Below, one piece after another: positions 27,358-40,453 of a DNA stretch of 40,584 nucleotides. The position numbers were made by a program, and so were the translations under genes. The stretch is from an uncultured delta proteobacterium. Lineage in GTDB: Bacteria; Myxococcota_A; Polyangia; Polyangiales; Polyangiaceae. The notes below the pieces were generated by a model. That model was not told the origin of the DNA, did not search any database, and saw nothing but the letters and a program-made list of their open reading frames with translations. The stretch is taken from the NCBI GenBank assembly GCA_903906315.1, contig CAIVJW010000277.1, forward strand, positions 1 to 40,584. The letters run 5' to 3'. Position 1 is the stretch's first letter; each line of letters begins with the position of its first letter.

Positions 27358-28458
27358 ATGGCGCGGCGCACTGCGATCGTGGGCTTCGGGCGCTTCGGGC
27401 GTGCCCTCGGGGGGCTGCTCGCCGAGGCCGGGCTTTCGTTCCGGGCCTTCGACCCGGGCGCGGACGTCCCCGCCGACGTGCGCGGCGCGTCGATCGGAGA
27501 CGTCGTGCGCGGGGCCGCCGTCGTGGTGGTCGCGGTGCCGGTGGCCGAGGTGCGCGCCGCCCTGATCGCGCTGCGCCCGCACCTCGGGCCGCGGCACCTC
27601 GTCCTCGACGTCGCCAGCGTGAAGCTCGCCCCCGCCGCCGCGTTGGAGGAGGTGCTCGGCGCGGACGTGCCGTGGATCGCGACGCACCCGCTCTTCGGGC
27701 CGACGAGCCTCGCGCTGGGCGAGCGGCCCCTGCGCGTCGTGGTCTGTCCGAACGCGATCCACCCGGCGGCGCTGCGCCGCGCGCGCGCCTTCTACGAGCG
27801 CCTCGGCTGCGAGGTCGTCGAGCTCGGGGCCGAGGCGCACGACCGATCGATGGCCGAGACGCACGCGCTCACGTTCTTCGTCGCCAAGGGCCTGCTCGAC
27901 GTGGGCGCCGGCGAGGGCGCGCCGGCCGCGCCGCCCTCGTTCCAGGCGATCGCGCGCACGATCGACGTCGTGCGGTCGGACGCGGGGCACCTGTTCTCGG
28001 CGATCCACCGCGCCAATCCCTTCGCGGGGGCGGCGCGCGCGCGGCTGCTCGACGCGCTCGGATCGCTCGATCGCGCCCTGCGCGAGGACCGTCCGCGCAA
28101 CGAGCCGCGCGTCGAGGCGCGCGTCGACATCCCGGGCCTCGGCGATCGCGCGCCCGATCTCCGCGAGACGCGCGAGCTCATCGACGAGGTCGACGCCGAG
28201 ATCCTCGCCCTGCTCGCGCGCCGGGCGCACCTCGCGCGGCGCGCGGCCCGCGCCAAGGCGACGCTCGGCCGCGGCATCGTGGACCGCCGCCGCGAGGCCG
28301 AGCTGATCGCGTCGCGTCGCGCGCGCGCCGAGGTCCTTGCGCTCGACCCCGCTGCCATCGAGGACATCTTCCGCGCGGTGCTGCGCTTCTCGCGCCGCGC
28401 GCAGGCCGCCGCCCCGCCCGCGCCGCCGCCCCGTCGATCCCGTCCCCGGAAGGCCTGA
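27358..28458 (+). CDS. tyrA: Prephenate dehydrogenase fused to chorismate mutase (tyrosine biosynthesis)
   Basis: 366 residues from ATG 27358. Residues 1-250 are the dehydrogenase: NAD(P) loop GFGRFGRAL, VLDVASVK, THPLFGP (family TH.PMFGP motif) and the helical dimer region with DRSMAETHALTFF. Residues about 265-350 are an AroQ-type chorismate mutase: LRETRELIDEVDAEILALLARR, then RRAARAK and DRRREAELIASRR. The domain order is dehydrogenase then mutase, the reverse of enteric TyrA, where the mutase is N-terminal. The two steps convert chorismate to prephenate and then to 4-hydroxyphenylpyruvate. The C-terminus is a Pro/Arg tail. No clear Shine-Dalgarno sequence is seen. There are no other aromatic-pathway genes nearby. 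Confidence 0.9.
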   Translation: MARRTAIVGFGRFGRALGGLLAEAGLSFRAFDPGADVPADVRGASIGDVVRGAAVVVVAVPVAEVRAALIALRPHLGPRHLVLDVASVKLAPAAALEEVLGADVPWIATHPLFGPTSLALGERPLRVVVCPNAIHPAALRRARAFYERLGCEVVELGAEAHDRSMAETHALTFFVAKGLLDVGAGEGAPAAPPSFQAIARTIDVVRSDAGHLFSAIHRANPFAGAARARLLDALGSLDRALREDRPRNEPRVEARVDIPGLGDRAPDLRETRELIDEVDAEILALLARRAHLARRAARAKATLGRGIVDRRREAELIASRRARAEVLALDPAAIEDIFRAVLRFSRRAQAAAPPAPPPRRSRPRKA

Positions 28459-28614: not shown

Positions 28615-29634
28615 ATGCGTACCACGACCCTTCGACTCCTCCAGACCTCGCTCGCTCTCGGTGCCATTGCCCTGCTCACGGGCGCCAACGACCCCGGCTG
28701 CGCGAACGTCTCCGCCGACTCCGTGTCGAGCGCCGCCAGCGAGGCCGCGCTCGGTCAGGCCGGCGGCGCGGCGACGAGCAGCGACGCGATCGCCTGTTTG
28801 GCAGGGACCCACGTCGAGACGCTGTGCGCGCCGCCCGACGGCAAGGGCGACGGCAAGGGCCCGCCCGGCGAGGGCGGCGCGCCGCCGAAGGGGGAGCCCG
28901 GCAAGGGGCCGAAGGCGCACGACTGCCAGGCTGCCTGCGTGCCCGATCCCGTGTGCGGTGATACGCAGAAGGCCGCTTGGATCTGCGGTGGTCCGCCGAA
29001 GCACCCGAAGGGCGACAAGGCCGGTCCGCCGCCGAAGGGTGGAGTCGGTGGCGCTGCCGACGGGCAGGGCCCGCCGCCGCCGCCGCCCGGCGCCGGGATG
29101 GGCGGCGCGCCCCCCGACGGGGATCACGGCGACGAGGGGCTCAAGGGCGGAGCGGGCGGCGGCGATTGCGAGGGTCACGGCCCGAAGGGCGCGCCGAAGG
29201 GCCCGCCGCCGGGCTGCCACGTGGTCTGTGTGGATCCGGCCCCGTGCGCGGACGGCTACGCCGAGGTCGTCGCGTGCGCCGACCCGCCCAGGCCCCCGAA
29301 GGGCGACAAGGCCGGTCCGCCGCCGAAGGGCGGAGTCGGCGGTGCCCCCGCCGAGGGCGACAAGCCCCCGCTGCCGGCCGGCTGCGCGCTTGCGTGCATG
29401 CCCGCCGCGCCGTGTGCGGACGGGCTCGTCGAGGTCGACGTGTGCGGGCCCCCGCCGCCTCACGGCGAGCACGGCCCCGGCGCTCCGCCCGACGGCGCCG
29501 GGGGCGCGCCTCCCGCCCCGCCGCAGGCCGGCGAGGGCGGCGCTCCCCCGGACGGCGGGCCCCCCGGCGCCCCGCCGTGCGTGAAGGTCTGCGCGCCGAA
29601 GCCCCCGGCCGTCGACGCCACCCCCGCGAACTGA
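28615..29634 (+). CDS. Exported Gly/Pro-rich low-complexity Cys protein
   Basis: 339 residues from ATG 28615, with GGAGG upstream at good spacing. Sec signal peptide (LLQTSLALGAIALLTGAND); a Cys follows soon after, but there is no proper lipobox. Gly/Pro/Lys-rich linkers (GDKAGPPPKGGVGGA) separate short Cys-containing segments of one type, C...C.P.PC.DG..EV..C. Two linker copies are encoded by a 36-bp exact DNA repeat. It is probably a disordered, disulphide-studded surface protein. No enzymatic motif. Role unknown. Confidence 0.8.
   Translation: MRTTTLRLLQTSLALGAIALLTGANDPGCANVSADSVSSAASEAALGQAGGAATSSDAIACLAGTHVETLCAPPDGKGDGKGPPGEGGAPPKGEPGKGPKAHDCQAACVPDPVCGDTQKAAWICGGPPKHPKGDKAGPPPKGGVGGAADGQGPPPPPPGAGMGGAPPDGDHGDEGLKGGAGGGDCEGHGPKGAPKGPPPGCHVVCVDPAPCADGYAEVVACADPPRPPKGDKAGPPPKGGVGGAPAEGDKPPLPAGCALACMPAAPCADGLVEVDVCGPPPPHGEHGPGAPPDGAGGAPPAPPQAGEGGAPPDGGPPGAPPCVKVCAPKPPAVDATPAN
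29004..29330 (+). repeat. Pair of 36-bp direct repeats inside the low-complexity gene
   Basis: Identical 36-bp copies at 29004-29039 and 29295-29330, 291 bp apart, both in frame, encode PKGDKAGPPPKG. Recombination between them would delete 97 codons in frame. Confidence 0.85.
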
Positions 29635-29811
29635 GCCTCTCCCCGCCGGCCTCCCGCGGTCGACGGGGAGCTTCACGGGATCGCCGGGCGCCGCGGATTG
29701 GGCCTCTTGCCAATCGTCCACGGCGGCGCTCGTCGGTCTCTCCGATCTCCCGCTCGCTCCCCCTGCGGCGCCATGGGCCGGCGCAGCTCGACGTGCTACG
29801 CCGCCCGCGTG

Positions 29812-30834
29812 ATGCTCCCCGCCCGCCTCCCGCTCGCCGCGATCGGCGCCCTCTCGCTCCTCGCCGCCTGCGCGAGCGCGCCCCCTCCGCCACCCGTGGT
29901 CCCGCCGGCCCCGCCCGCTCCCCCGCCGCCTGCGGTCGCCGTCGCGCCCGCCGACGCCGGCGTGGTCGACGCCGCTCCCCCGGCGCCCGAGCCCGCCCCC
30001 GCGGCAGCCGGCGGGCCGGTCGCGTGCCCGGCGGAGATGGCCCTCGTCGACGGCGACTACTGCACCGAGCTCGAGCTCACGTGCAAGAAGTCGAGCTACG
30101 CGAAGCAGAACAAGAAGATCATCTGTCACGAGTTCGCGTCACCGACGAAGTGCGTCGGGCAGAAGCTCCACCGGCGCTACTGCATCGATCGGTACGAGTA
30201 CGCGAACAAGGCCGGGGAGAAGCCCGTCGTCATGAACGACTTCCCGCACGCGCAGAGGCTCTGCGCGGCGCAGGGCAAGCGCGTCTGCACGGAGACGGAG
30301 TGGACGCAGGCGTGCGAGGGGCCGGAGTACAAGCCCTATCCCTACGGCTACGCGCGCGACCCGGAGAAGTGCCGCGGCGACCGCCCGTACCGGCACCCGA
30401 AGAAGCAGGCCAATGGCATGCTCGTCACGCACTCGAAGGACAAGGACAAGGCCGAGGCCGAGATAGCGCGGCTCTACGACGCGGTGCCGAGCGGATCGCA
30501 GCCGAATTGCGTGAGCGACTACGGCGTCCACGACCTGCCCGGGAACGCGGACGAGCTCGCGGCGTCGGAGCGCGCGAACCGGACCTACGCCCAGATGAAG
30601 ATGCCCGACGGGCACGTGGAGGCCCTGCGATCGGCGGACCTCTACGACAACGTGACGACGGGCGGGCCGTGGGTAGGCGGGGTGCGCAACCAGTGCCGTC
30701 CGAAGATCTACACCCACAACGAGGGGTTTTCTTATTACTACCTGAGCTTCCGGTGCTGCGCGGAGCCGGACGGCAAGCCGACGGACCCGCGGTCGCCGGG
30801 GCAGCTCAAGCGGGGAGAGAAGTGGAGGGAGTGA
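29812..30834 (+). CDS. Lipoprotein with formylglycine-generating-enzyme-like (SUMF1) domain
   Basis: 340 residues from ATG 29812. A longer frame upstream lacks the signal peptide at its start, so it is rejected. Signal peptide with lipobox (LSLLAAC), then a Pro/Ala-rich linker to about residue 70. From there it follows the FGE-sulfatase (C-type-lectin-like) fold: MALVDGDYC, YCIDRYEYANKAGEKPVV, MNDFPHAQRLCAAQGKRVCTETEW, DLPGNADELAAS and the C-terminal YYLSFRCC. The usual GNV.EW motif is degenerate (GNADEL), and no sulfatase gene is close by, so a binding role rather than formylglycine formation is likely. Many cysteines, as in myxobacterial members. Outer-membrane or periplasmic location. Confidence 0.85.
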   Translation: MLPARLPLAAIGALSLLAACASAPPPPPVVPPAPPAPPPPAVAVAPADAGVVDAAPPAPEPAPAAAGGPVACPAEMALVDGDYCTELELTCKKSSYAKQNKKIICHEFASPTKCVGQKLHRRYCIDRYEYANKAGEKPVVMNDFPHAQRLCAAQGKRVCTETEWTQACEGPEYKPYPYGYARDPEKCRGDRPYRHPKKQANGMLVTHSKDKDKAEAEIARLYDAVPSGSQPNCVSDYGVHDLPGNADELAASERANRTYAQMKMPDGHVEALRSADLYDNVTTGGPWVGGVRNQCRPKIYTHNEGFSYYYLSFRCCAEPDGKPTDPRSPGQLKRGEKWRE

Positions 30835-31004: not shown

Positions 31005-32246
31005 ATGCTTCCCCGGGCGAACGCCGCGAAGCTCCGGCCCGCGGCGCCGCGGCCGGCCCGTCGCGGCGCCGTGGCCGTCGCGATCGGCGCCCTCGCGATC
31101 GGCGCGGCCCCGCTCGGCATCGCCGCAGCCTCGGCCGACGAGCCCCTCGAGCCGATCGTCCTGCGCTACGAAGCCGAGGCGGGTTGCCCCGACGCGGCCG
31201 AATTCGGCGGCGAGGTGCGCGGCCGCGCCAGCCGCGCCCGCCTCGCCGATCCGGGCGAGCGCGCGCGCACCTTCACGGTGCGGATCACGCGGGCCGGGCG
31301 CACGTTTCGCGGGCACCTCGAGGTGCGCGAGACCGCGGGCGCCTCGAGCGCGCGCGACGTCTCGGGCGCGAGCTGCGCCGAGGTCGCGAGCGCGCTCGCC
31401 CTGGTGACGGCCCTCGCGATCGACCCGCAGGCGGCGACCGCCCCGCGCGTCGGGTCGACGTTCGGAGGCGCCGCGTCCTCGGTCGCGACCGCCGATGCCG
31501 GGGCCGAGGCCGCGCGCGACGCGTCGCCCGATGCGCCGCCACCGCACGCGCCAGCCGACGCGGCCGCGCCGCCCGACGCTGCCGCCCTCGACCCAGCGCT
31601 CGACGCCGCGCTCGACGGTTCGACCCCCGACGCGGTCGCGCCGCCCGAACCCCCGATCCCGCGGCCGGCCTTGCCTCGGGCGCCCCCCGATCCCGGCGAT
31701 CCCGACCCGTACGCGGGTCGCGCCGTGCGCCTCTTCGTCGGCCTCTCCTACGCGGCGACCACCGGCCTCGCTCGCGAGCTCTCGGGCGCGCCCGGCGCCT
31801 TCATCGAGGTCGGCCTGCCCCCGCGCGGCGCGATCGCGCCGACCCTTCGGCTCGCGATCGATCGCGTCTCCGGCGCGTCGCTGGTCGCGCCGGGCGGCTG
31901 GCTCGCGCGCTTCGACCGCACGCGGGTAGAGCTCGACGCCTGCGCGGTGCGCCTCCCGATCGGGCCGTTGGATCTCGCGCCGTGCGTCGCCTTCGGCGCG
32001 GGCGTCGTGGCCGCCGAGGGCCGCGTCGCGCGCGAGGTCGTGTCGCGCACCCGCCCGTGGGTCGACGCCGAGCTCGGCGCGCGCGCGCGGCTCTGGCTGC
32101 TCGACCGCGTCTCGATCGAGGTCGACGGAGGCGTGAGCTTCCCCTTCGTGCGCGACACGTTCGTCTTCGATCCGACGACCACGATCGACCGCACGCCGGC
32201 CGCCGCCGCCTTCGTCGCGGGCGCGGCGGCCGTGCGGTTCTACTGA
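31005..32246 (+). CDS. Exported protein with N-terminal small domain and C-terminal barrel-like domain
   Basis: 413 residues. Signal peptide with cleavage near ASADEP. Residues 45-140 form a small alpha/beta domain (VLRYEAEAGCPDAAEFGGEVRGR, then TFRGHLEVRE, SCAEVASALALVTALAID). From memory this type occurs in exported myxobacterial proteins encoded near sigma factors. Residues 150-235 are an Ala/Asp/Pro linker. The rest (about 240-413) alternates hydrophobic strands and turns and ends in VRFY, an aromatic C-terminus as in outer-membrane barrels (VRLFVGLSYAATTGL, RVELDACAVRLPIG, ARLWLLDRVSIEVDGGVSF). The start has no strong Shine-Dalgarno sequence. It converges on the last gene of the seven-gene unit with 4 bases between stops. 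Function unknown. Confidence 0.75.
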   Translation: MLPRANAAKLRPAAPRPARRGAVAVAIGALAIGAAPLGIAAASADEPLEPIVLRYEAEAGCPDAAEFGGEVRGRASRARLADPGERARTFTVRITRAGRTFRGHLEVRETAGASSARDVSGASCAEVASALALVTALAIDPQAATAPRVGSTFGGAASSVATADAGAEAARDASPDAPPPHAPADAAAPPDAAALDPALDAALDGSTPDAVAPPEPPIPRPALPRAPPDPGDPDPYAGRAVRLFVGLSYAATTGLARELSGAPGAFIEVGLPPRGAIAPTLRLAIDRVSGASLVAPGGWLARFDRTRVELDACAVRLPIGPLDLAPCVAFGAGVVAAEGRVAREVVSRTRPWVDAELGARARLWLLDRVSIEVDGGVSFPFVRDTFVFDPTTTIDRTPAAAAFVAGAAAVRFY

Positions 32247-32250
32247 CGGT

Positions 32251-32889
32251 TCAGTGGCTGGCGCCGGTCGCCTTCATGCCGTCTTGCGCGAGCGCGTTGC
32301 GCGGCGAGATGGCGAGCACGGTGCGGAACTCCTTGGCCGCGTCGGCGAGCTTGCCGAGCTTCACCTGCGACCAGCCGAGGCCCGCGCGCGCGTCGACGTC
32401 GCTCGGATACAGCTCGATCACGCGCTTGTAGGCGGCCTCCGCCTCGCCGAAGCGACCGAGCGAGTACACCGTGAAAGCGAAGCGGATCGTCGCGAGGTAG
32501 TTGCCGGGGTCGCGCTTGAGCACCTCGCGCGCGGTCGTCTCCGTGTCGGCCCACCGCCGCAGCGCCATCAGCGGCAGCATCACGCCGACGCGCGCCTCGA
32601 CGCCGCCCGGCTCGAGCGCGATCGCCTTGTTGTACGGCTCGATCGCGTCCGCGCTGCGCCCTAGCTTGTAGAGCAGCCACCCCTTGCGGAGCTGCGCGAC
32701 GTACGCGTCCCGCCGCTCCGCCGGCAGCTTGTCGAGGGCCGCGAGGGCCTCGGGGAGCTTGCCGACCGCCTCGCTGTCGTACGACTTCTGGAAGAGATCG
32801 GCGTCGCTCTCGGCGCTCGCGACCCGCACCACGCTGCCGCCGAGCGCGGTCACCGTGACCATCAGGAGAATCCACCGCTTCGCGTTCAT
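32251..32889 (-). CDS. Exported TPR protein (last gene of the seven-gene unit)
   Basis: 212 residues. Its ATG overlaps the stop of the transporter-peptidase gene (ATGA, 32886-32889), so translation is coupled. N-terminal signal peptide ending ASAES. The mature part contains about four TPR units (GWLLYKLGRSADAIEPYNKAIALEP, AFTVYSLGRFGEAEAAYKRVIELYP, GLGWSQVKLGKLADAAKEF). TPR proteins bind partner proteins, so this one is probably a periplasmic scaffold for the other envelope proteins of the unit. No lipobox, no membrane helix other than the signal. Confidence 0.87.
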   Translation of the reverse strand: MNAKRWILLMVTVTALGGSVVRVASAESDADLFQKSYDSEAVGKLPEALAALDKLPAERRDAYVAQLRKGWLLYKLGRSADAIEPYNKAIALEPGGVEARVGVMLPLMALRRWADTETTAREVLKRDPGNYLATIRFAFTVYSLGRFGEAEAAYKRVIELYPSDVDARAGLGWSQVKLGKLADAAKEFRTVLAISPRNALAQDGMKATGASH

Positions 32890-35069
32890 CGCTGCTCCTT
32901 CCGGCGCTCGATCGCGCCGTCGTCACTGCCCGTCGCGGCCGGCATCCGCTCGGCCACCACGGAAACCTCGTTCACGCAGAGCTCGAGCCGCCCCGGCCCG
33001 GCTCCCCGCGTCAGCTCGGCGCGCGTCCGCACGAACGCCGCGCCCGCGCGCCCGCGCCGATCGGACTTGCCCGTCACCACCAGCAGGCCGCCCTCGCGCC
33101 GCATCCGATAGGCCATCTCCACGCCGTCCTTCGAGCGGAATGGCGCGACCACGTCGGACAGCGCGCGCCACAGCCACGGCCGGAGCCCGCGCGCGGGCAG
33201 CGTGTCGCCGAAGACCAGCCCGGCCGTCGCGTCGAAGGGCACGCGCGAGAGCGCCGCCCGCAGGAGGTACAGCACCGAGGCCCGATCGCCGACGACGTCG
33301 AGGACGGTGAAGGCGTCGTCGGTCACGGCGTAGAACAGCGTCGCGGGCCGGTCGCGCGACACGAGCACTCGCCGGCCGTAGAGGTCGACCTCGGCGCCGA
33401 TGCGCTCCTCGGCCCCGCGGGCGCGGAACACCCACTCTTCACCCGGCACGAACGCGAGGTGGGCGCCGATCTCCGGGTCGGACTCCGCATTGCGCAGCTC
33501 CTCGCCCTCGACCGGCGTCGCCGATCGCACGAGCCGGGGGCCGCGCGCGTCGCCGGAGGCGACGACCTCGTTCCACGCGCACGGGATGGTCGGGGCGCCG
33601 AGCTTGGGGCCGCCCTGGAGCTGGAAGTGCAGGTGCGGCCTCGGCGATCGCCCCGAGCTGCCCGCGAGTCCGAGCGTGTCCCCGCACTTCACCGCCTGGC
33701 CCGCCTTCACCTTCACGCCGCGGTGCGCGAGGTGGGCGACGAGCGAGTAGAGCCCCTCGGCGTGGTGGATGATGACGTAGTTGCCCCAGTTGTGCTCGAG
33801 GTCCTGCTGGCCAATCGGGTTGTCCGGCTGATTGGCCTCGACCTCGACCACGAGGCCGTCGGCGGCCGCGAGCACGGGCAGGCGCCAGGAGTGGTAGTCC
33901 TCGACCGTGAGGCCTTCGCTGCGGTGGAGGCTCCCGTCCGCGTCCTTCACCTCGAAGTCGAAGCCGTGGCGCCAGTCGGCCTTGTGCGTGATCGCGCCGT
34001 CGACGCCCTGCGTGCACACCCACGTCCCGCGGAACGGGAGGCGCAGCGCGACCGGGTACATCCAGCCGAAGCGAGCGTGCACCGCGCGGGAATAGGCGAG
34101 GTTCTCCTCGGGCGTGCCCGAGATGAAGTCGACGGACTTCGGCCGATCGTCGCGGTCGCGGCGGCGCAGCGCGGCGAGCGTGATCAGCACGGTCGCGTTG
34201 AGCGGCAGGATGCCAATCGGGACCGAGAGGCCCGCGAGCGCCGCGGCGCCGCCGATCGCGACGAGCGTCGAGACGCCGGCGCCGAGCAGGCCCACCAGGA
34301 ACGAGGAGCCCGACGGCACGTACCACACGGCGCCGAGCGCCACGGCCGTGAGCATGCCATTGTAGCCGAGCGTGAGCAAAAGGCCGCCGTCCGGGGCCGC
34401 GCCGATGGCGTGCGCGACGCCGGCCGCGAGCGCGAAGGCGGCGGCCGCGAGCACGGTGGAGATGCGGCTGTGGACGACGAGCGCGACGAGCACGATCGCG
34501 CCCGCGTCGAGGCGCGGCAGGAAGAAGAGCGCGCCGAGGCTGCGGACGAAGGCGGCGACCGCGGCGGGGAGCGGTGAGGAGGCGAGCGGGTCCAGATCCG
34601 GCAGCGAGACGGGCGCGCCGGTGGCGTGGGCCGTCCCCAGCACGAGGGCATGGAGGGCCACGAAGGGCAGCGTGAGCGCGGGCAGATTGGCGACGCCGAG
34701 CAGGCTGCGAAGGCCCGCGGTGACGACCACGCTGGCCGCGGCGACGACGACCGTGAGGGCCACCGCCGAGGCGCCGCCCGAAAACGACTGGCTTACACCG
34801 AGCCCGAGCAGGAGGGCATTGTAGCCGTAGGCGCCCGCGTCGACCGCCGCGCGCTCGAGGCCTATCGCGCGCGCGAGCACGGTCGACGTGACCACCGCCA
34901 CGACCCCGAACAGCGCGGCGCGCGGCACGACGGCGGTGGCGAGGAGCAGGAGGAGGCCCACGACCGCCGAGCGGGAGAAGAGGATCTGCGCGTACACGAC
35001 GAGCAGCCTCTCCACCGCGTCGGCGGCCGCCTCGGCCGCCCGCGCACCTCGCCACCGGGGGGACTTCAC
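32886..35069 (-). CDS. Urea-transporter-like membrane domain fused to an M23 peptidase domain
   Basis: 727 residues from a GTG that overlaps the stop of the decarboxylase gene (GTGA, 35066-35069). Residues about 25-310 are a set of about ten hydrophobic segments with GYNALLLGLGVSQSF and GYNGMLTAVALG, the two inverted halves of urea transporters (UT family, channel-type uptake of urea or short amides). Residues about 335-500 are an M23/LytM peptidase domain with WRHGFDFEV, GNYVIIHH and PHLHFQL. The HxH motif (His479, His481) is intact. The first zinc motif is H-x2-D (His368, Asp371) instead of H-x3-D, so activity is uncertain. Residues about 505-727 are an unclassified domain. Probably an inner-membrane channel with a periplasmic peptidoglycan-binding or -cutting head. 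Confidence 0.88.
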   Translation of the reverse strand: MKSPRWRGARAAEAAADAVERLLVVYAQILFSRSAVVGLLLLLATAVVPRAALFGVVAVVTSTVLARAIGLERAAVDAGAYGYNALLLGLGVSQSFSGGASAVALTVVVAAASVVVTAGLRSLLGVANLPALTLPFVALHALVLGTAHATGAPVSLPDLDPLASSPLPAAVAAFVRSLGALFFLPRLDAGAIVLVALVVHSRISTVLAAAAFALAAGVAHAIGAAPDGGLLLTLGYNGMLTAVALGAVWYVPSGSSFLVGLLGAGVSTLVAIGGAAALAGLSVPIGILPLNATVLITLAALRRRDRDDRPKSVDFISGTPEENLAYSRAVHARFGWMYPVALRLPFRGTWVCTQGVDGAITHKADWRHGFDFEVKDADGSLHRSEGLTVEDYHSWRLPVLAAADGLVVEVEANQPDNPIGQQDLEHNWGNYVIIHHAEGLYSLVAHLAHRGVKVKAGQAVKCGDTLGLAGSSGRSPRPHLHFQLQGGPKLGAPTIPCAWNEVVASGDARGPRLVRSATPVEGEELRNAESDPEIGAHLAFVPGEEWVFRARGAEERIGAEVDLYGRRVLVSRDRPATLFYAVTDDAFTVLDVVGDRASVLYLLRAALSRVPFDATAGLVFGDTLPARGLRPWLWRALSDVVAPFRSKDGVEMAYRMRREGGLLVVTGKSDRRGRAGAAFVRTRAELTRGAGPGRLELCVNEVSVVAERMPAATGSDDGAIERRKEQR

Positions 35070-36412
35070 CGGAGCCACTCCGGCACTTCCTCGATGCGCG
35101 CGAAGTCGTCGAGCACCTCGGCGCGCCGGATGCGCGCGACGCGCCCGTCGGCGCCCACCATCACGACCGCGGGCCGCAGCGTGATGAACTGCTGCCACTG
35201 GGTCACGTTGTAGGCGCCCACGTTGCGGAACACGAGGCGGTCACCCGCCGACATCGCGGGAAACTGCATGGTGTCACGCATCACGTCGATGTTCATGCAG
35301 AGCGGCCCGTACATGATCGTCGGCTCGAGCAGGCCGCCGAACTCCTGCGCCGGGACGACGTCGTGCTTGTACCAGTACGAGGTGAAGAGCAGGTTCACGC
35401 CGGCGTCGATGACGAGCGCCCGCCGCCCGTCGGGGAGGCGCTTGTTCGCCTCGACGGTCGAGATCAGGTATCCGGCGTCGTCGACCAGCGCGCGGCCCGT
35501 CTCGAGCACCAGCGTCGGCAGCTCGCGAGCGGGGTAGTCGAGGTCGGCGAGCCCGTCGCAGATCGCGTCGGCGTACCGCGAGAAGGGCGGGCTGGCCTGC
35601 TCGCCCGCGAGGTACTGGCTCTTCAGCGTGTTGCGCGACGCGAAGCCGCCCCCGAGGTCGATGAACGAGAGCAGGATCCCGTGGTCCGCCTTGATCTCGT
35701 TCGCGAGGGCCGCGAGCTTCGTCGCCGATTGGCCGTACGCCTCCGGCTCCTGGATGAACGTCCCGATGTGGGCGTGGATGCCGACGAGGTCGACCCGCCC
35801 GCCGGCGACGAGGCGGCGAATGCCGTCCTTCGCCTGACCCGACTCGAGGTTCAGCCCGAATCGGCTCCACGGCGACTGGCCCTCGATGGCCATGTTGACC
35901 CGCACCGCGACGCGGGCCCGCGTGCCGATCCGCTGGCTGATGCGCTCGACGCGCGCGAGCTCGTCGAGGCCGTCGAGGTGCAGCAACGTCCCGCCGGCGA
36001 TCGCGCGCTCGAGCGCGTCGTCGGGCTTGTACGGGCCGTTCCAGTGGATCTGGTCGGGCGTCATGCCGGCCTTGATGGCCTTGTCCCACTCGAAGGGCGA
36101 GACGACCTCGGCCCAGGCGCCCTGCTTGTGGAACAGGCGGCAGATGGCCTCGAGGTAGTTCGTCTTGTACGACCAGGCGATGCGGACGCGCGGGTAGCGG
36201 CGCGCGAACGCCTCGTAGAGCTCGCGGTAGCGGTTCTGGAGCGTGCGCTCCGAGAAGACGAAGAGCGGAGAACCGTGCTCGGCCACGAGGTCGGCGACCG
36301 CGACGCCGTCGATGTGGGTCTGCGGTCGGACGCCCTGCAGGCGACCGAACTTGTTCATCATGCCAATCTGGTGGCGGACGATCGTCGGCCTCTCGTATGC
36401 GGGCAGGCTCAC
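35066..36412 (-). CDS. PLP fold-type III amino-acid decarboxylase
   Basis: 448 residues from a GTG that overlaps the stop of the ATP-grasp gene (GTGA). It has the TIM-barrel and beta-domain layout of diaminopimelate/ornithine decarboxylases. PLP-binding Lys83 lies in SYKTN (YAxKAN in LysA), with HAHIGTF, the glycine loop DLGGGFAS, ETGRALV (EPGR in LysA; Glu304) and the substrate-side Cys372/Asp376 pair in GPLCMNID. The deviations at SYKTN and ETGR, together with the context (no lysine genes), argue that it does not act on meso-diaminopimelate in lysine synthesis but on another amino acid or on a peptidyl or conjugated substrate. No signal peptide, so it acts in the cytoplasm. Confidence 0.88.
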   Translation of the reverse strand: MSLPAYERPTIVRHQIGMMNKFGRLQGVRPQTHIDGVAVADLVAEHGSPLFVFSERTLQNRYRELYEAFARRYPRVRIAWSYKTNYLEAICRLFHKQGAWAEVVSPFEWDKAIKAGMTPDQIHWNGPYKPDDALERAIAGGTLLHLDGLDELARVERISQRIGTRARVAVRVNMAIEGQSPWSRFGLNLESGQAKDGIRRLVAGGRVDLVGIHAHIGTFIQEPEAYGQSATKLAALANEIKADHGILLSFIDLGGGFASRNTLKSQYLAGEQASPPFSRYADAICDGLADLDYPARELPTLVLETGRALVDDAGYLISTVEANKRLPDGRRALVIDAGVNLLFTSYWYKHDVVPAQEFGGLLEPTIMYGPLCMNIDVMRDTMQFPAMSAGDRLVFRNVGAYNVTQWQQFITLRPAVVMVGADGRVARIRRAEVLDDFARIEEVPEWLR

Positions 36413-37479
36413 GGCTGACCTCCATTCGTGGTGCGCGCGACCTCACCCAGCGTGACCATGTGCTGGAAGTCGGCGAAGCTCGCGACCTGATCGATCGCGA
36501 TGCGGACGAACATCGAACCTACCTTGTAGTCGCCGAACACGGGCGCGGGGCGCCCCGCGGCGAGCTCGGCCACGGCGTGCGGGAGGTTCATCCCCGCCGC
36601 GCAGCTCAGGAACGTCCACGCGGGGAAGCGCGGGTTGACCTCGATGAGGTGATAGCGCCCCTCGGCGTCGCGCATCGCCTCGACCTCGAACGGCCCGCGC
36701 CACGAGGTGGCCTTCACGAACGCCTGCGTCACCTCGGCGAGCGCAGGGTCCCTGACGGTGATGCCCGCCCAGCCCTTGCCCTTGTCGGTGATGACCATCT
36801 TCTTCATGGGCACCGCGCCGACGAGGCCGCCCTTGCCGTCGCCGACGCCGACGACGTTGAACTCCTCGCCCCGGACCGTGGCCTGCACGACGACGGGAAG
36901 GCCCCACTGCGAGACGACCTTGTAGAACGCGTGGACGGCCTCTTCGTACGTCGACGCGAGCGTCGCGCCGTAGAAGACGCCCTTCACGAAGAACGGATAG
37001 GGCACCTTCTCGTGCACGCGGCCGAGCTCCTCGACGTCGCTGACGACCGCCGTCGCCGGCACGACGATCCCGCTCTTGCGCCCGAGGTCCACCAGGCGCG
37101 CCTTCGACCGGAGGTCGAGCTGCTCGCGCGTCGGCAGGAAGAGGCGAATGCCGAGCTGGCGCAGCCGCGGCTCGAGGTCGATGAACGAGGGCAGCTCGGC
37201 GTCGAGCGTCGGGATGATGACGTCGAGGCCGACCTTGTCATGCACGTACTCGAGGCGCGAGAAGAAGGCCTCGAGCCCCTGAGAGGGGTAGGGGATGAGG
37301 AAGACGTCGCTCGTCAGGCCGTCGGCGTAGATGCCGGCGTCGAGCGCGTCGTACGCGAGGCCGACGAGGCGGCTTTCGGGGTCGCCGAGGCGCAGCGCGC
37401 GGAGCACGCCGACGCCGGGCGCGGGGTTGTCCGTCGCGTTGAGGCCCGTGACGGCGATCGTGAGCGGTTTCTGGGTCAT
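36409..37479 (-). CDS. ATP-grasp ligase
   Basis: 356 residues from ATG 37479. An N-terminal Rossmann-like preATP-grasp domain (IAVTGLNATDNPAPGVGVLRAL, VIIPTLDAELPSF) is followed by the ATP-grasp fold with PFFVKGVFYGATLAST, VVVQATVRGEEFNVVG, PFEVEAMRDAEGRYHLIEVNPRFPAW; Glu280 and Asn282 are the magnesium ligands. This is the type related to carbamoyl-phosphate synthase and to carboxylate-amine ligases that make amide bonds or peptides. Its partner PqqD-like protein, 22 bases upstream, suggests that it modifies a peptide or a carrier-bound acid; its product could be the substrate of the decarboxylase that overlaps its end. Both key metal-binding residues are present. Confidence 0.9.
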   Translation of the reverse strand: MTQKPLTIAVTGLNATDNPAPGVGVLRALRLGDPESRLVGLAYDALDAGIYADGLTSDVFLIPYPSQGLEAFFSRLEYVHDKVGLDVIIPTLDAELPSFIDLEPRLRQLGIRLFLPTREQLDLRSKARLVDLGRKSGIVVPATAVVSDVEELGRVHEKVPYPFFVKGVFYGATLASTYEEAVHAFYKVVSQWGLPVVVQATVRGEEFNVVGVGDGKGGLVGAVPMKKMVITDKGKGWAGITVRDPALAEVTQAFVKATSWRGPFEVEAMRDAEGRYHLIEVNPRFPAWTFLSCAAGMNLPHAVAELAAGRPAPVFGDYKVGSMFVRIAIDQVASFADFQHMVTLGEVARTTNGGQP

Positions 37480-37501
37480 GGCAGGGTCCCTGTCGGTCCG
37501 C

Positions 37502-37768
37502 TCACGTGTCGAGGTGGAAGTCCTGCGGCAGGACGCCCTGTTGGCCGAGCAGGTGGAGGAAGTCGTCGAGGTCGGCCTCCACCTCGGCGGGCGGCGCGTC
37601 GAAGCTCTCGCGCAGGCGCCGCACGACGTCGGGGCGGGCGAGCCCCTCGGCGAGCGCGCGCAGGATGCAGAGCCCGGTCGGGTTGACGGTGAAGGTGGCG
37701 CCCGAGTAGGGGTCGAACACGAACCCGGTATCGCTCAGCGCGAGATCGCGCACTCGTTGGTTGATCAC
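37502..37768 (-). CDS. PqqD-like peptide-binding protein
   Basis: 88 residues from GTG 37768, preceded by AGGAG at good spacing; the longer frames upstream overlap the barrel gene. It has the PqqD-fold pattern: a short strand hairpin with GFVFDPYSGATFTVNPTG, then a winged-helix part ILRALAEGLARPDVVRRLRE and DLDDFLHLLGQQGVLP. PqqD-type domains (RREs) hold the leader of ribosomal precursor peptides for the modifying enzymes, and free-standing versions accompany radical-SAM, ATP-grasp and HPr-like systems. No candidate precursor peptide gene lies in the 11- and 22-base gaps next to it. Confidence 0.85.
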   Translation of the reverse strand: MINQRVRDLALSDTGFVFDPYSGATFTVNPTGLCILRALAEGLARPDVVRRLRESFDAPPAEVEADLDDFLHLLGQQGVLPQDFHLDT

Positions 37769-37779
37769 GAGAGGCTCCT

Positions 37780-38979
37780 TCAGAAGGTCTTGGAGAGTGC
37801 CATGGATACGGAGTGCACGTCCTGGGTCGAGTTGCCCGCCGTGCTGCCTAGTCGATCCATCGAATACCGTAGATGGATGCGGAGATCGTTGCCGGCATTC
37901 ACGCTGCCGCCGGCCCAGAATCCGAACGAGATTTGCTCGCGGAGGTTGTAGACCGTGTCGAGCGTCATGTACGCGGGGCGCATCTCCGGGCCGCCCTTGC
38001 CGCCGGCCCACACCTCGACCGGGCCGCGCTCGAAGGCCGCGGTCGCGGAGGCGTTGACGTACGTGTAGGGTTTCGTCCACTGCACGGCCATCGCGGGGCG
38101 GAGCGAGAATCCGCCGGCGATCGGGATACGCCACGCGGGCTCGAAGCGCAGTACGGTGAGGTCGTCGTACGCGCTCACCGCCGAGGCGAACGTCACGTCG
38201 CCATAGGGGCTCCAGCGCAGATCGAGGCCGCCGTGGTGCGAGGTGCCGACGTAGCCACTGCCATCGTCTTGCACCGCGTACCGGAGCGCGGCGCCGAAGC
38301 GGGGCGCGGCCCAGCCGATCCGGAAGTGGCCTTCGTTCTGCGACCACGCGGAGACGGGGCTCGACCCGCGGCCGAAGAACTCCTTGAAGCGGTAGGTGCC
38401 TCCGGCGAAGAGGCCTGTCCGGTGCGCGACGTCGAGGCTCGCCGTGCCGCCCACGGCCGCCCGTCGCGTTCCTCCGCGGTAGAACAGGCCGTCGACCGAG
38501 AGGCCCGGGGTCACCCACAGCGTCTTCGGGCGCGCGCACGGCGCGGCGGCCTCGGCGCGCACCGGGTGGTCGGGGGCCACCGTGAGCACCCGCGAGAAGA
38601 GCACGGCGGCCTCGTCGCACCGCCCCTGTCGCGCGACCGCGACCGCCAGGCCGGCCGCGGCGTCAATGCCATTCGGCGAGCGCATTAAGGCCAGTCGATA
38701 GGCGCGCTCTGCGTCGGTCCAGCGCTGTCTCCGCAGGTGGATCCAGCCCGCGCGGAGCGGCAGCTCGTAGTCTTGCGGGTAGAGATCGAAGCCGATCAGG
38801 AGCTCGAGCTCGCCCGCCGCTCCGTCGAGATCCCCGGCGCGCTCCCGGTCCGCCGCGCGCCCGAGGGCCTCGTCGTAGGCGTCGGCGCGCGCGGCTCTCG
38901 GCCAGAGGAGCGCGCCCGCGATCGCGATCGCGACGACGGTGCGCCCCCTCCTCGAGGGGCAACTGCGAGTGGCACTCAT
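37780..38979 (-). CDS. TPR plus outer-membrane beta-barrel protein (YaiO-like)
   Basis: 399 residues from ATG 38979, only 7 bases after the stop of the lipoprotein gene upstream. Signal peptide ending AARADAYD. Residues 30-150 hold TPR-like helices (AGWIHLRRQRWTDAERAYRLAL, GLAVAVARQGRCDEAAVLFSRV). Residues about 165-399 alternate amphipathic strands and turns and end in Phe (SVSMALSKTF), the outer-membrane insertion signal. This is the layout of YaiO-type barrels, which in other systems export polymers or small molecules through the outer membrane. It probably gives the seven-gene unit its outer-membrane component. Confidence 0.85.
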   Translation of the reverse strand: MSATRSCPSRRGRTVVAIAIAGALLWPRAARADAYDEALGRAADRERAGDLDGAAGELELLIGFDLYPQDYELPLRAGWIHLRRQRWTDAERAYRLALMRSPNGIDAAAGLAVAVARQGRCDEAAVLFSRVLTVAPDHPVRAEAAAPCARPKTLWVTPGLSVDGLFYRGGTRRAAVGGTASLDVAHRTGLFAGGTYRFKEFFGRGSSPVSAWSQNEGHFRIGWAAPRFGAALRYAVQDDGSGYVGTSHHGGLDLRWSPYGDVTFASAVSAYDDLTVLRFEPAWRIPIAGGFSLRPAMAVQWTKPYTYVNASATAAFERGPVEVWAGGKGGPEMRPAYMTLDTVYNLREQISFGFWAGGSVNAGNDLRIHLRYSMDRLGSTAGNSTQDVHSVSMALSKTF

Positions 38980-38986
38980 GGCGCCC

Positions 38987-39616
38987 TCAGGGCTTCTGGG
39001 GCACGCAGACGCCCGCGTTGCAGGTGAACTGCGGCCCGCCCGGGATCACCGGGCAATCGGCGGGGACTCCGCAGGTCGGCACGCAGCGTGGGCCGTCGGG
39101 CGTGGGCTCGCATGCGCAGGCCTTCGAGCCCTGCGGGCACGCGCCGGTGCACTCGTCGTTGGCGGCGCACGCCTTCGGTCCGGGCCCTCCGTCGCCCGGG
39201 GGCGGCCCGCCGGCGTCCGGGTGCGGGGCGGCGCCACCGTCACCGGGGCCGGGAGGCGTGCCGCCGTCGCGCTCGCCCGGGCGCTGTCCCCCGGCCCCCA
39301 TGCCGCCGGCGATGCAGATGCCGCCCATGCGGTCGCACGTCAGCCCCTCGGGGCAGTCGGCTGGCTCGAAGCAGGTCGGCACGCACACCGGACCCACGGG
39401 CATCGGGACGCACGCGCAGCCGAGCGATCCGCCGGGGCAGGCGCCCACGCAGTCGACGGCGGCGGCGCACGTGCGGTACGTGATCCCGCCGCCAGCGCCC
39501 GCGTCCGTGCTGCCGGCGGCGGTCGCGTCCTCGTTGGCGATGCGGCAGGCGGCGAGCGCGGCGACGGCGACCAGGAGGGCGGCGAGGCGCGGAGTCGTGC
39601 GGGGGGGAGTCGTCAT
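38987..39616 (-). CDS. Cys-rich lipoprotein (first gene of the seven-gene unit)
   Basis: 209 residues from ATG 39616. Signal peptide with lipobox (AALLVAVAALAAC). The mature part has two copies of a Cys module (C...VDCVGACPGGSLGCAC, then CVPTCFEPADCPEG; and C..NDECTGACPQGSKACAC, then CVPTCGVPADCP), separated by a Gly/Pro/Asp linker. The modules resemble short EGF- or knottin-like domains seen in myxobacterial surface proteins. Because it is translated just upstream of, and almost joined to, the barrel gene, it belongs to the unit and could be its surface-exposed substrate or receptor. Weak Shine-Dalgarno sequence. Confidence 0.82.
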   Translation of the reverse strand: MTTPPRTTPRLAALLVAVAALAACRIANEDATAAGSTDAGAGGGITYRTCAAAVDCVGACPGGSLGCACVPMPVGPVCVPTCFEPADCPEGLTCDRMGGICIAGGMGAGGQRPGERDGGTPPGPGDGGAAPHPDAGGPPPGDGGPGPKACAANDECTGACPQGSKACACEPTPDGPRCVPTCGVPADCPVIPGGPQFTCNAGVCVPQKP

Positions 39617-39808: not shown

Positions 39809-40453
39809 ATGCTCTCGGTCGCCCCAGCCGTGCCCGACCCCGGCGCGTCCCGGCTCACCCCGATCGGCGCTGGAGCGCCCGTGCAGGGCGACCGGGAGAG
39901 CTCCGTGCCGATCGGCCCGGTGAGGGACCCGGCACGCCTCCGGGCGATGCTCGACGCGCACTACGACCTCGTCTGGCGCTCGCTGCGGCGGTTCGGCGTT
40001 CGCTCGGGGGACGTCGACGACGCCGCCCAGCAGGTGTTCCTCGTCGCGGCGCGGAAGCTCGACCTGGTCGAGGCCGGCGCCGAGCGATCCTTCCTGGTCG
40101 GCACGGCGATGCGCGTCGCCTCCGACGCGCGGCGTGCGGCGACGCGGCGGCGCGAGGTGCAGGACGAGGGCCCCATCCACGAGCGGCGCGACTCGTCGCC
40201 GGGGCCCGACGAGCTCGCCGACCGCCACCGGGCGCGCGAGCTGCTCGACGAGGTGCTCGACGCGATGCCGCTAGAGCTTCGGTCGGTCTTCGTGCTGTTC
40301 GAGCTCGAGGAGCTGCCCACGGCCGAGATCGCCGCGCTCCTCGGCGTGCCGGTCGGCACGGCCGCGTCGCGCCTGCGCCGCGCTCGCGAGGAGTTTCACC
40401 GCATCGCGTCGCGCCTGCGCGCGCGCGCCGGACACGCTGGAGGTGCATCGTGA
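39809..40453 (+). CDS. ECF-type RNA polymerase sigma factor
   Basis: 214 residues from ATG 39809, which has GAGGG upstream; a longer in-frame start at 39677 is possible but less well placed. Residues 1-40 are a Pro/Gly-rich extension. Region 2 (about 42-105) has AHYDLVWRSLRRFG and DVDDAAQQVFLVAARKL. A charged linker follows. Region 4 (about 150-200) has LELRSVFVLFELEELPTAEIAALLGVPVGTAASRLRRAREEF, a typical helix-turn-helix for -35 recognition. It directs RNA polymerase to a specific promoter set. The next gene overlaps its stop by GTGA and may encode its partner. It is divergent from the seven-gene unit, so it could control it. Confidence 0.92.
   Translation: MLSVAPAVPDPGASRLTPIGAGAPVQGDRESSVPIGPVRDPARLRAMLDAHYDLVWRSLRRFGVRSGDVDDAAQQVFLVAARKLDLVEAGAERSFLVGTAMRVASDARRAATRRREVQDEGPIHERRDSSPGPDELADRHRARELLDEVLDAMPLELRSVFVLFELEELPTAEIAALLGVPVGTAASRLRRAREEFHRIASRLRARAGHAGGAS

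Follow-up and report, generated by a model that had tools for sequence, protein, structure and literature searches.

In butirosin biosynthesis, the trio BtrI/BtrJ/BtrK combines a ligase, a small partner protein and a decarboxylase of the alanine-racemase fold that acts on a conjugated amino acid and that stands, in the accessible part of PMC7857480, beside FigC, SbnH, AcsE and MccE as decarboxylases with conjugated substrates. BtrJ-like enzymes are placed with the carbamoyl phosphate synthases in the accessible part of PMC4431377, and, according to that of PMC12710340, the Pfam family PF05402 covers PqqD plus many other recognition elements (RREs) of ribosomally synthesized and post-translationally modified peptides (RiPPs). 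Here we compare with these systems a seven-gene operon found in a 40,584-nucleotide stretch of DNA (the window), which is one whole contig (CAIVJW010000277.1) of the 8.79-Mb genome of an uncultured delta proteobacterium of the Polyangiaceae. As in the butirosin trio, a ligase, a small partner protein and an alanine-racemase-fold decarboxylase occur together; the operon differs in having a PqqD-like protein where butirosin has an acyl carrier, and in additional envelope genes encoding tetratricopeptide repeat (TPR) proteins and a fusion of a urea-transporter (UT) domain with an M23 metallopeptidase domain. It represents a real, widely conserved system in Myxococcota that we did not find described in the literature searched and whose function we infer throughout.

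That literature yielded no description of this gene set, an earlier mention among ATP-grasp studies being possible, and never brought 'PqqD' and 'urea transporter' together. The operon pairs a PqqD-like protein with chemistry not shown beside it in the publications searched, gives a conserved setting for the transporter/metallopeptidase fusion and contains a decarboxylase that marks a subfamily with its own pocket. Since the pathway is compact, occurs in 16 families and includes two enzymes with their catalytic residues kept, discovery of its product is directly testable; one carrier of the locus, Minicystis rosea DSM 24000, is a culture-collection strain.

Gene layout and conservation in Myxococcota

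The operon occupies positions 32251–39616 of the window, with seven minus-strand genes in the order A-B-C-D-E-F-G (shadow open reading frames, ORFs, were disregarded):

38987–39616, minus strand: A, cysteine-rich lipoprotein of 209 amino acids (aa) with a lipobox and many cysteines; optional member
37780–38979, minus strand: B, exported TPR protein of 399 aa with a predicted outer-membrane barrel and a C-terminal phenylalanine; TPR matches weak to moderate, barrel inferred
37502–37768, minus strand: C, PqqD-like (RRE-type) protein of 88 aa; PF05402
36409–37479, minus strand: D, ATP-grasp ligase of the carbamoyl-phosphate-synthase-like group, 356 aa; ATPgrasp_Ter PF15632
35066–36412, minus strand: E, alanine-racemase-fold (type III) decarboxylase dependent on pyridoxal phosphate (PLP), 448 aa; PF02784 and PF00278
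32886–35069, minus strand: F, UT domain (residues 23–300), M23 domain (residues 398–485 by Pfam) and a C-terminal region without assignment, 727 aa; PF03253 and PF01551
32251–32889, minus strand: G, TPR protein with a signal-like N-terminus, 212 aa; Pfam TPR matches; follows F in relatives

The genes are separated by gaps of 7, 11 and 22 base pairs (bp) at the A/B, B/C and C/D junctions, the last being the largest within the operon, and then overlap by 4 bp at D/E (GTGA), E/F (GTGA) and F/G (ATGA). These coordinates bear out the initial annotation, made from the sequence alone, for every one of the seven ORFs, strand and junctions included. Its family labels also agree with Pfam for C, D, E and F and with the TPRs in B and G; the label of A, for which no Pfam or NCBIfam match was obtained, agrees with its lipobox and cysteines.

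Strong relatives of D (E ≤ 1e-20) were present in 27 of the 282 genomes of the phylum searched, our own included, and spanned 16 families; the occurrence of D in 15 of the 192 good-quality genomes indicates a patchy spread. We compared the wide DNA regions around D in all 27 genomes (window included), together with one locus of M. rosea DSM 24000, the nearest named relative, retrieved by scanning genome contigs with one protein. Across these 28 loci the order C, D, E, F, G is kept. C and D are adjacent in 27 (the sole miss begins 122 bp from a contig end), D and E in 26 (the misses being one contig end and genome G251) and E and F in 22 (five contig ends and G251), and at 19 of 26 loci D and E overlap by exactly 4 bp. 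G251 shows the one genuine split, with C-D and E-F-B-G at two places (L048 and L093), both retained. Three of the 22 F genes run off the contig, and all the remaining 19 have G downstream. Among these 19 complete loci, five have a B homologue ahead of C and 14 have an ORF of 315–542 aa between F and G; of the ten such ORFs scanned, seven had TPRs above the cut-off, two only below it and one none. Seven of the other 27 loci contain counterparts of A, either as cysteine-rich ORFs (neighbour cluster 7, one member read) or as weak BLAST relatives.

When the same 282 genomes were queried with F, the matches listed included 26 genomes with similarity across both UT and M23 (in G245 the match stops at residue 465, where the contig ends), further matches being mostly to M23 alone and in a few cases to UT alone. 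D and F coincide in 24 genomes, that is, 24/27 of those with D and 24/26 of those with F (hypergeometric P = 2.5e-29, a statistic that ignores relatedness). In the three genomes with D only (G121, G164 and G190), a contig end interrupts the set, and F fragments lie at the edge in two of them; in the two with F only (G256 and G260), E and F stand side by side at a contig end, and part of D is present in G256 as well. All five discordant genomes thus have a contig end inside or beside the set and we saw no clear exception. As shown by their conservation, C, D, E, F, G and a TPR protein of the B type constitute one co-inherited unit, more than expected by chance. The proposal of a single system therefore held: relatives keep the gene order, and the split of G251 is the only real one among the 28 loci. 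The idea of a seven-gene set stood in part: its members are co-conserved, but A is optional, B has two possible positions and the smallest unit is apparently C-D-E.

A profile search in 52 genomes of one class detected D in 12, including a weak match in G214 left out of the 27. Weaker ligase matches in G214 (L113, E = 2.7e-27) and, as a second copy, in G204 (L114, E = 5.2e-21) are possible paralogues. In G001 (L046), the C gene reads as two overlapping frames, reflecting a frameshift or an assembly error. Neighbour cluster 8 was rejected as shadow frames of F, lying on the opposite strand where tblastn finds F.

The ligase-decarboxylase core

We favour, at about an even chance, a dedicated biosynthetic-and-envelope system, a conserved unit in which D would ligate, E would decarboxylate and the product would be handled at the envelope. 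D matches ATPgrasp_Ter (PF15632; 39.5 bits, cut-off 29.1), a family matched by 15 of 15 D proteins. Residues K126, K166, K227, E265, E267, E280 and N282 are kept in 28/28 and presumably include the nucleotide lysines and the metal-binding Glu/Glu/Asn. The best NCBIfam scores of D are with carbamoyl-phosphate-synthase-like models, below cut-off, a trait shared with BtrJ, which we liken to D by description only. D would likely activate a carboxylate as an acyl phosphate and join it to an amino acid via the side chain of the latter, so that the alpha-amino and alpha-carboxyl groups of the amino acid stay free. AlphaFold2 models built from two-row alignments were unusable (mean predicted local distance difference test, pLDDT, of 37.3 for D and 31.5 for F).

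E matches Orn_Arg_deC_N (PF02784; 105.8 bits, cut-off 23.4) and also PF00278, and its catalytic residues (K83, R171, H215, G254–256, R307, C372 and Y401) are kept in 23/23 proteins. Its nearest solved relative is FigC (183.7 bits), ahead of the best diaminopimelate (DAP) decarboxylase in the PDB (131 bits) and of BtrK, a weaker match at 83.6 bits. It falls below the NCBIfam cut-offs for LysA (TIGR01048; 213.2 of 297.9 bits) and FslC (204.6 of 500). In the accessible part of PMC7857480, the residues that set the substrate in this decarboxylase group include a DAP-binding arginine and an acid beside the catalytic cysteine. In all 23 E proteins the arginine column in the specificity helix is Thr and the acid position is Met, both as in FigC (we took Arg 329 of the Methanocaldococcus jannaschii chain, in our own count, as R343 of PMC7857480). 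His357 and Arg387 of FigC, described there as citrate contacts proposed by docking, and Thr330 correspond to Ile375, Gln405 and Trp347 in E, again in 23/23. In a phylogenetic tree, from which L045 was left out since its start was unsure, E grouped with FigC apart from the DAP decarboxylases (support 90/96). We rejected the identification of E as LysA based on its score, its pocket residues and the presence in the same genome of a separate LysA-like gene, 31% identical to E.

Judging from these aligned residues, E has an N-citrylornithine-decarboxylase-type pocket without the citrate-contact His and Arg. This pocket, together with the action of related enzymes on conjugated amino acids, suggests that D would make, and E decarboxylate, an amino acid linked through its side chain to a partner other than citrate. 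E would likely form a Schiff base with the alpha-amino group and remove the alpha-carboxylate to leave an amine-ended conjugate, like FigC and BtrK and unlike LysA. The sequence of ligation then decarboxylation envisaged in the initial annotation gains support from the 4-bp D/E overlap in 19 of 26 loci, from a natural D-E fusion (see below) and from the pocket residues of E. The rhizoferrin enzymes FigC and FslC resemble E as nearest solved relative and pocket type, but E lacks the citrate contacts, stays under the FslC threshold and has an ATP-grasp ligase as its partner gene. The enzyme core may then work like the ligase/decarboxylase part of butirosin or rhizoferrin synthesis, yet every named pathway enzyme tested has a defining trait that this core lacks.

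C matches PqqD (PF05402) with 42.8 bits (gathering cut-off 23.4), and 18/18 aligned members reach E ≤ 0.01 with both the lasso PqqD model and TIGR04353. It scores below the cut-off of the PqqD of the pyrroloquinoline quinone pathway (TIGR03859; 16.2 of 46). The phosphopantetheine carrier domain PP-binding has no match among the seven window proteins, and C matches PqqD only. In contrast with known PqqD/RRE systems, with which it shares this family, the operon has no conserved precursor, and no radical SAM enzyme, YcaO or lasso cyclase was found among the conserved neighbour clusters. With less certainty, C may bind a peptide or protein and present it to D and E, replacing the acyl carrier of a butirosin-type trio.

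The UT-M23 fusion and alternative explanations

F exceeds the Pfam cut-offs for both UT (PF03253; 149.7 bits, cut-off 25) and Peptidase_M23 (PF01551; 63.6 bits, cut-off 28.7) and stays below the urea-transporter equivalog TIGR03441 (83.9 of 274.6 bits). Its similarity to M23 begins at about residue 340, and H362, D371, H446, H479 and H481, which presumably bind the zinc and carry out catalysis in this domain, are invariant in 19/19. In contrast with the separate transporters and peptidases, F fuses both domains and, among the matches listed in the 282 genomes, this fusion was found only with D or E adjoining or in the genome. None of 125 matching plasmid records covers 80% of F.

UT proteins have ten helices with both ends inside. 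The positive-inside count over ten helices of the 19 aligned F proteins (K/R 10.2 vs 3.4) favours an N-in/C-in orientation. A cytosolic location of M23 is accordingly more probable than a periplasmic one, and the periplasmic peptidase head initially proposed for F appears doubtful. Cysteine content, per 100 aa, offers a weak hint: the 0.99 of the soluble part of F is closer to the values of D (0.90) and E (0.79) than to those of G (0.55) and B (0.49), although C has just 0.22. F might therefore sit in the inner membrane with M23 on the cytosolic face, where it would hydrolyse the conjugate amide, the small product passing through the UT-type pore. G and B, both with signal-like starts, could conceivably carry or anchor the product at the periplasm and outer membrane. 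The surface-lipoprotein translocon family Slam (PF24575) was not detected in the seven window proteins or in 10 of the 14 ORFs lying between F and G (best score 23.4 of 35.2). A bolder version, which we regard as rather improbable, is a new class of natural product or signal in which the PqqD-like protein is the carrier, loading and decarboxylation take place on a bound peptide or protein, F, acting as channel and cytosolic metallopeptidase at once, cuts the product off and passes it directly through the inner membrane, and phages have captured the core.

Several observations weigh against the biosynthetic-and-envelope reading. The charge rule for F depends on helix number, favouring a cytosolic M23 with 8, 10 or 12 helices and giving no decision with 9 or 11; M23 peptidases usually lie outside the cytoplasm, and of three M23 paralogues sought, the one with a readable frame (L089) starts signal-like. 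Urea-type pores pass very small molecules, which would exclude a large conjugate. NCBIfam hardly separates LysA from FslC for E (213 and 205 bits), and the grouping of E with FigC has only 90/96 support and long branches. C lies marginally above the cut-off of PqqD_rel_X of the HPr-rel-A system (TIGR04353; 35.5 of 35); no HprK-related kinase A was found in our genome, by a search whose control was equally silent. Finally, a survey of 446 ORFs of 15–90 codons, located in core genes or within 800 bp of them, revealed no conserved small ORF in or near the 28 loci, unconserved or distant precursors being possible; the small-ORF families present in at least three loci were judged to be C, its shadow frames or open frames arising by chance in GC-rich DNA. 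The step in which C presents a peptide is thereby left without its peptide.

The same result bears on a RiPP-like explanation, clearly less probable than the favoured one though the best placed of the alternatives. Here C would bind a leader, D and E would modify a ribosomal peptide or protein encoded elsewhere or the operon's own exported protein, the M23 domain of F would remove the leader, and B, G and A would export or display the product. It overlaps with the step of the favoured explanation in which C presents a peptide. The membership of C in PF05402, the family of PqqD and other RREs in the accessible text of PMC12710340, speaks for it, as does MccE, an enzyme of the same decarboxylase clade as E that acts on the peptide-nucleotide microcin C in the accessible text of PMC7857480. 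However, besides the missing conserved small ORF, the window operon, with its gaps of at most 22 bp, has no room for a precursor gene. A urea-type pore is, moreover, no peptide exporter.

An envelope decoration, the picture behind the initial annotation, in which an amine-ended product would be attached to peptidoglycan, a lipid or a surface protein while the M23 domain of F acts on peptidoglycan in the periplasm, appears unlikely. The conserved M23 residues and the signal-like starts of G and B would suit it, but the charge bias of F favours the cytosol for M23 and no transferase was found among the conserved neighbour clusters. Slightly less probable still is a metallophore, D and E making a citrate-free, rhizoferrin-like chelator: FigC as nearest solved relative and the FigC-type Met beside Cys point to it, whereas the replacement of H357 and R387 by Ile and Gln argues against it, and neither a TonB receptor nor a siderophore exporter was seen among the conserved neighbour clusters whose examples were examined. 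We attach an equally small chance to nutritional uptake, with B, G and F importing a small nitrogen compound for D and E to process, an idea suggested by the UT-family domain and by response-regulator (cluster 5) and histidine-kinase (cluster 6) genes beside 10/28 and 8/28 loci, respectively (the two regulators examined being one NtrC-type and one OmpR-type), but opposed by the seemingly biosynthetic form of ATP-driven ligation followed by decarboxylation, by the lack of a urease or hydrolase among the conserved neighbour clusters and by the fact that an NtrC-type domain does not in itself imply a link to nitrogen.

The core outside Myxococcota and neighbouring genes

The C-D-E set, which seems to form the enzyme core, is also found in other settings. 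The 65.7-kb IMG/VR contig IMGVR_UViG_3300047160_011268 carries the triad as overlapping genes (L115/L116, 3444–5922), comprising a PqqD-like ORF (hhalign probability 96), a 37%-identical ligase and a decarboxylase with 45% identity that retains the LCMNID motif and the Gln equivalent to Gln405. On its gene content, with matches to DNA polymerase, helicase, major head protein and portal or adaptor genes, this contig is a phage. In the 10.6 kb of it searched, A, B, F and G had no significant match (the best, 0.018, was to B), and a search without control did not find F in the whole contig. The same single contig was recovered in four of five viral-contig scans, the fifth giving nothing. The ligase had no match in the phage records searched; the phage-contig decarboxylase matched 11 of them, all at <60% identity, and two of the ten listed are annotated as lysA, the other eight having no annotation. 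A 61-aa ORF of unrecognised kind follows the phage triad (5988–6173).

In Streptomyces zaomyceticus, the 758-aa plasmid protein WP_327166871.1 is a single chain in which a D-like domain (33% identity) is fused to an E-like one (24%) (L057, 7995–10271 of NZ_CP108525.1). It is followed by a 195-aa protein of unknown kind and a fatty acid desaturase and, unlike in our operon, no PqqD-like, UT or TPR neighbour is annotated within 17 kb, where several neighbours are unnamed. Overall, the ligase matched 18 plasmid records, one of them covering at least 80%; no such neighbours are annotated around the Natronorubrum plasmid match, and the Rhizobium and Ensifer matches lie in unannotated stretches. A trio comparable to the core, consisting of consecutive genes for an acyl carrier, an AMP-binding ligase and a decarboxylase 30% identical to E, was found in a Shinella plasmid (NZ_CP015737.1; L100, 4210–7260). 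Antarctobacter (NZ_CP022543.1; L101, 5926–8729) carries tandem type III PLP decarboxylase genes with a 4-bp overlap.

In the window, a divergent sigma-70-family gene resembling the extracytoplasmic function type lies upstream of the operon (39809–40453), and a convergent ORF downstream of it ends at 32246. Beyond this, the window encodes a lipoprotein-like ORF carrying an FGE-sulfatase-type domain (29773–30834), a Gly/Pro/Lys-rich ORF that looks exported and has no Pfam match (28615–29634), and a prephenate dehydrogenase/chorismate mutase fusion (27358–28458).

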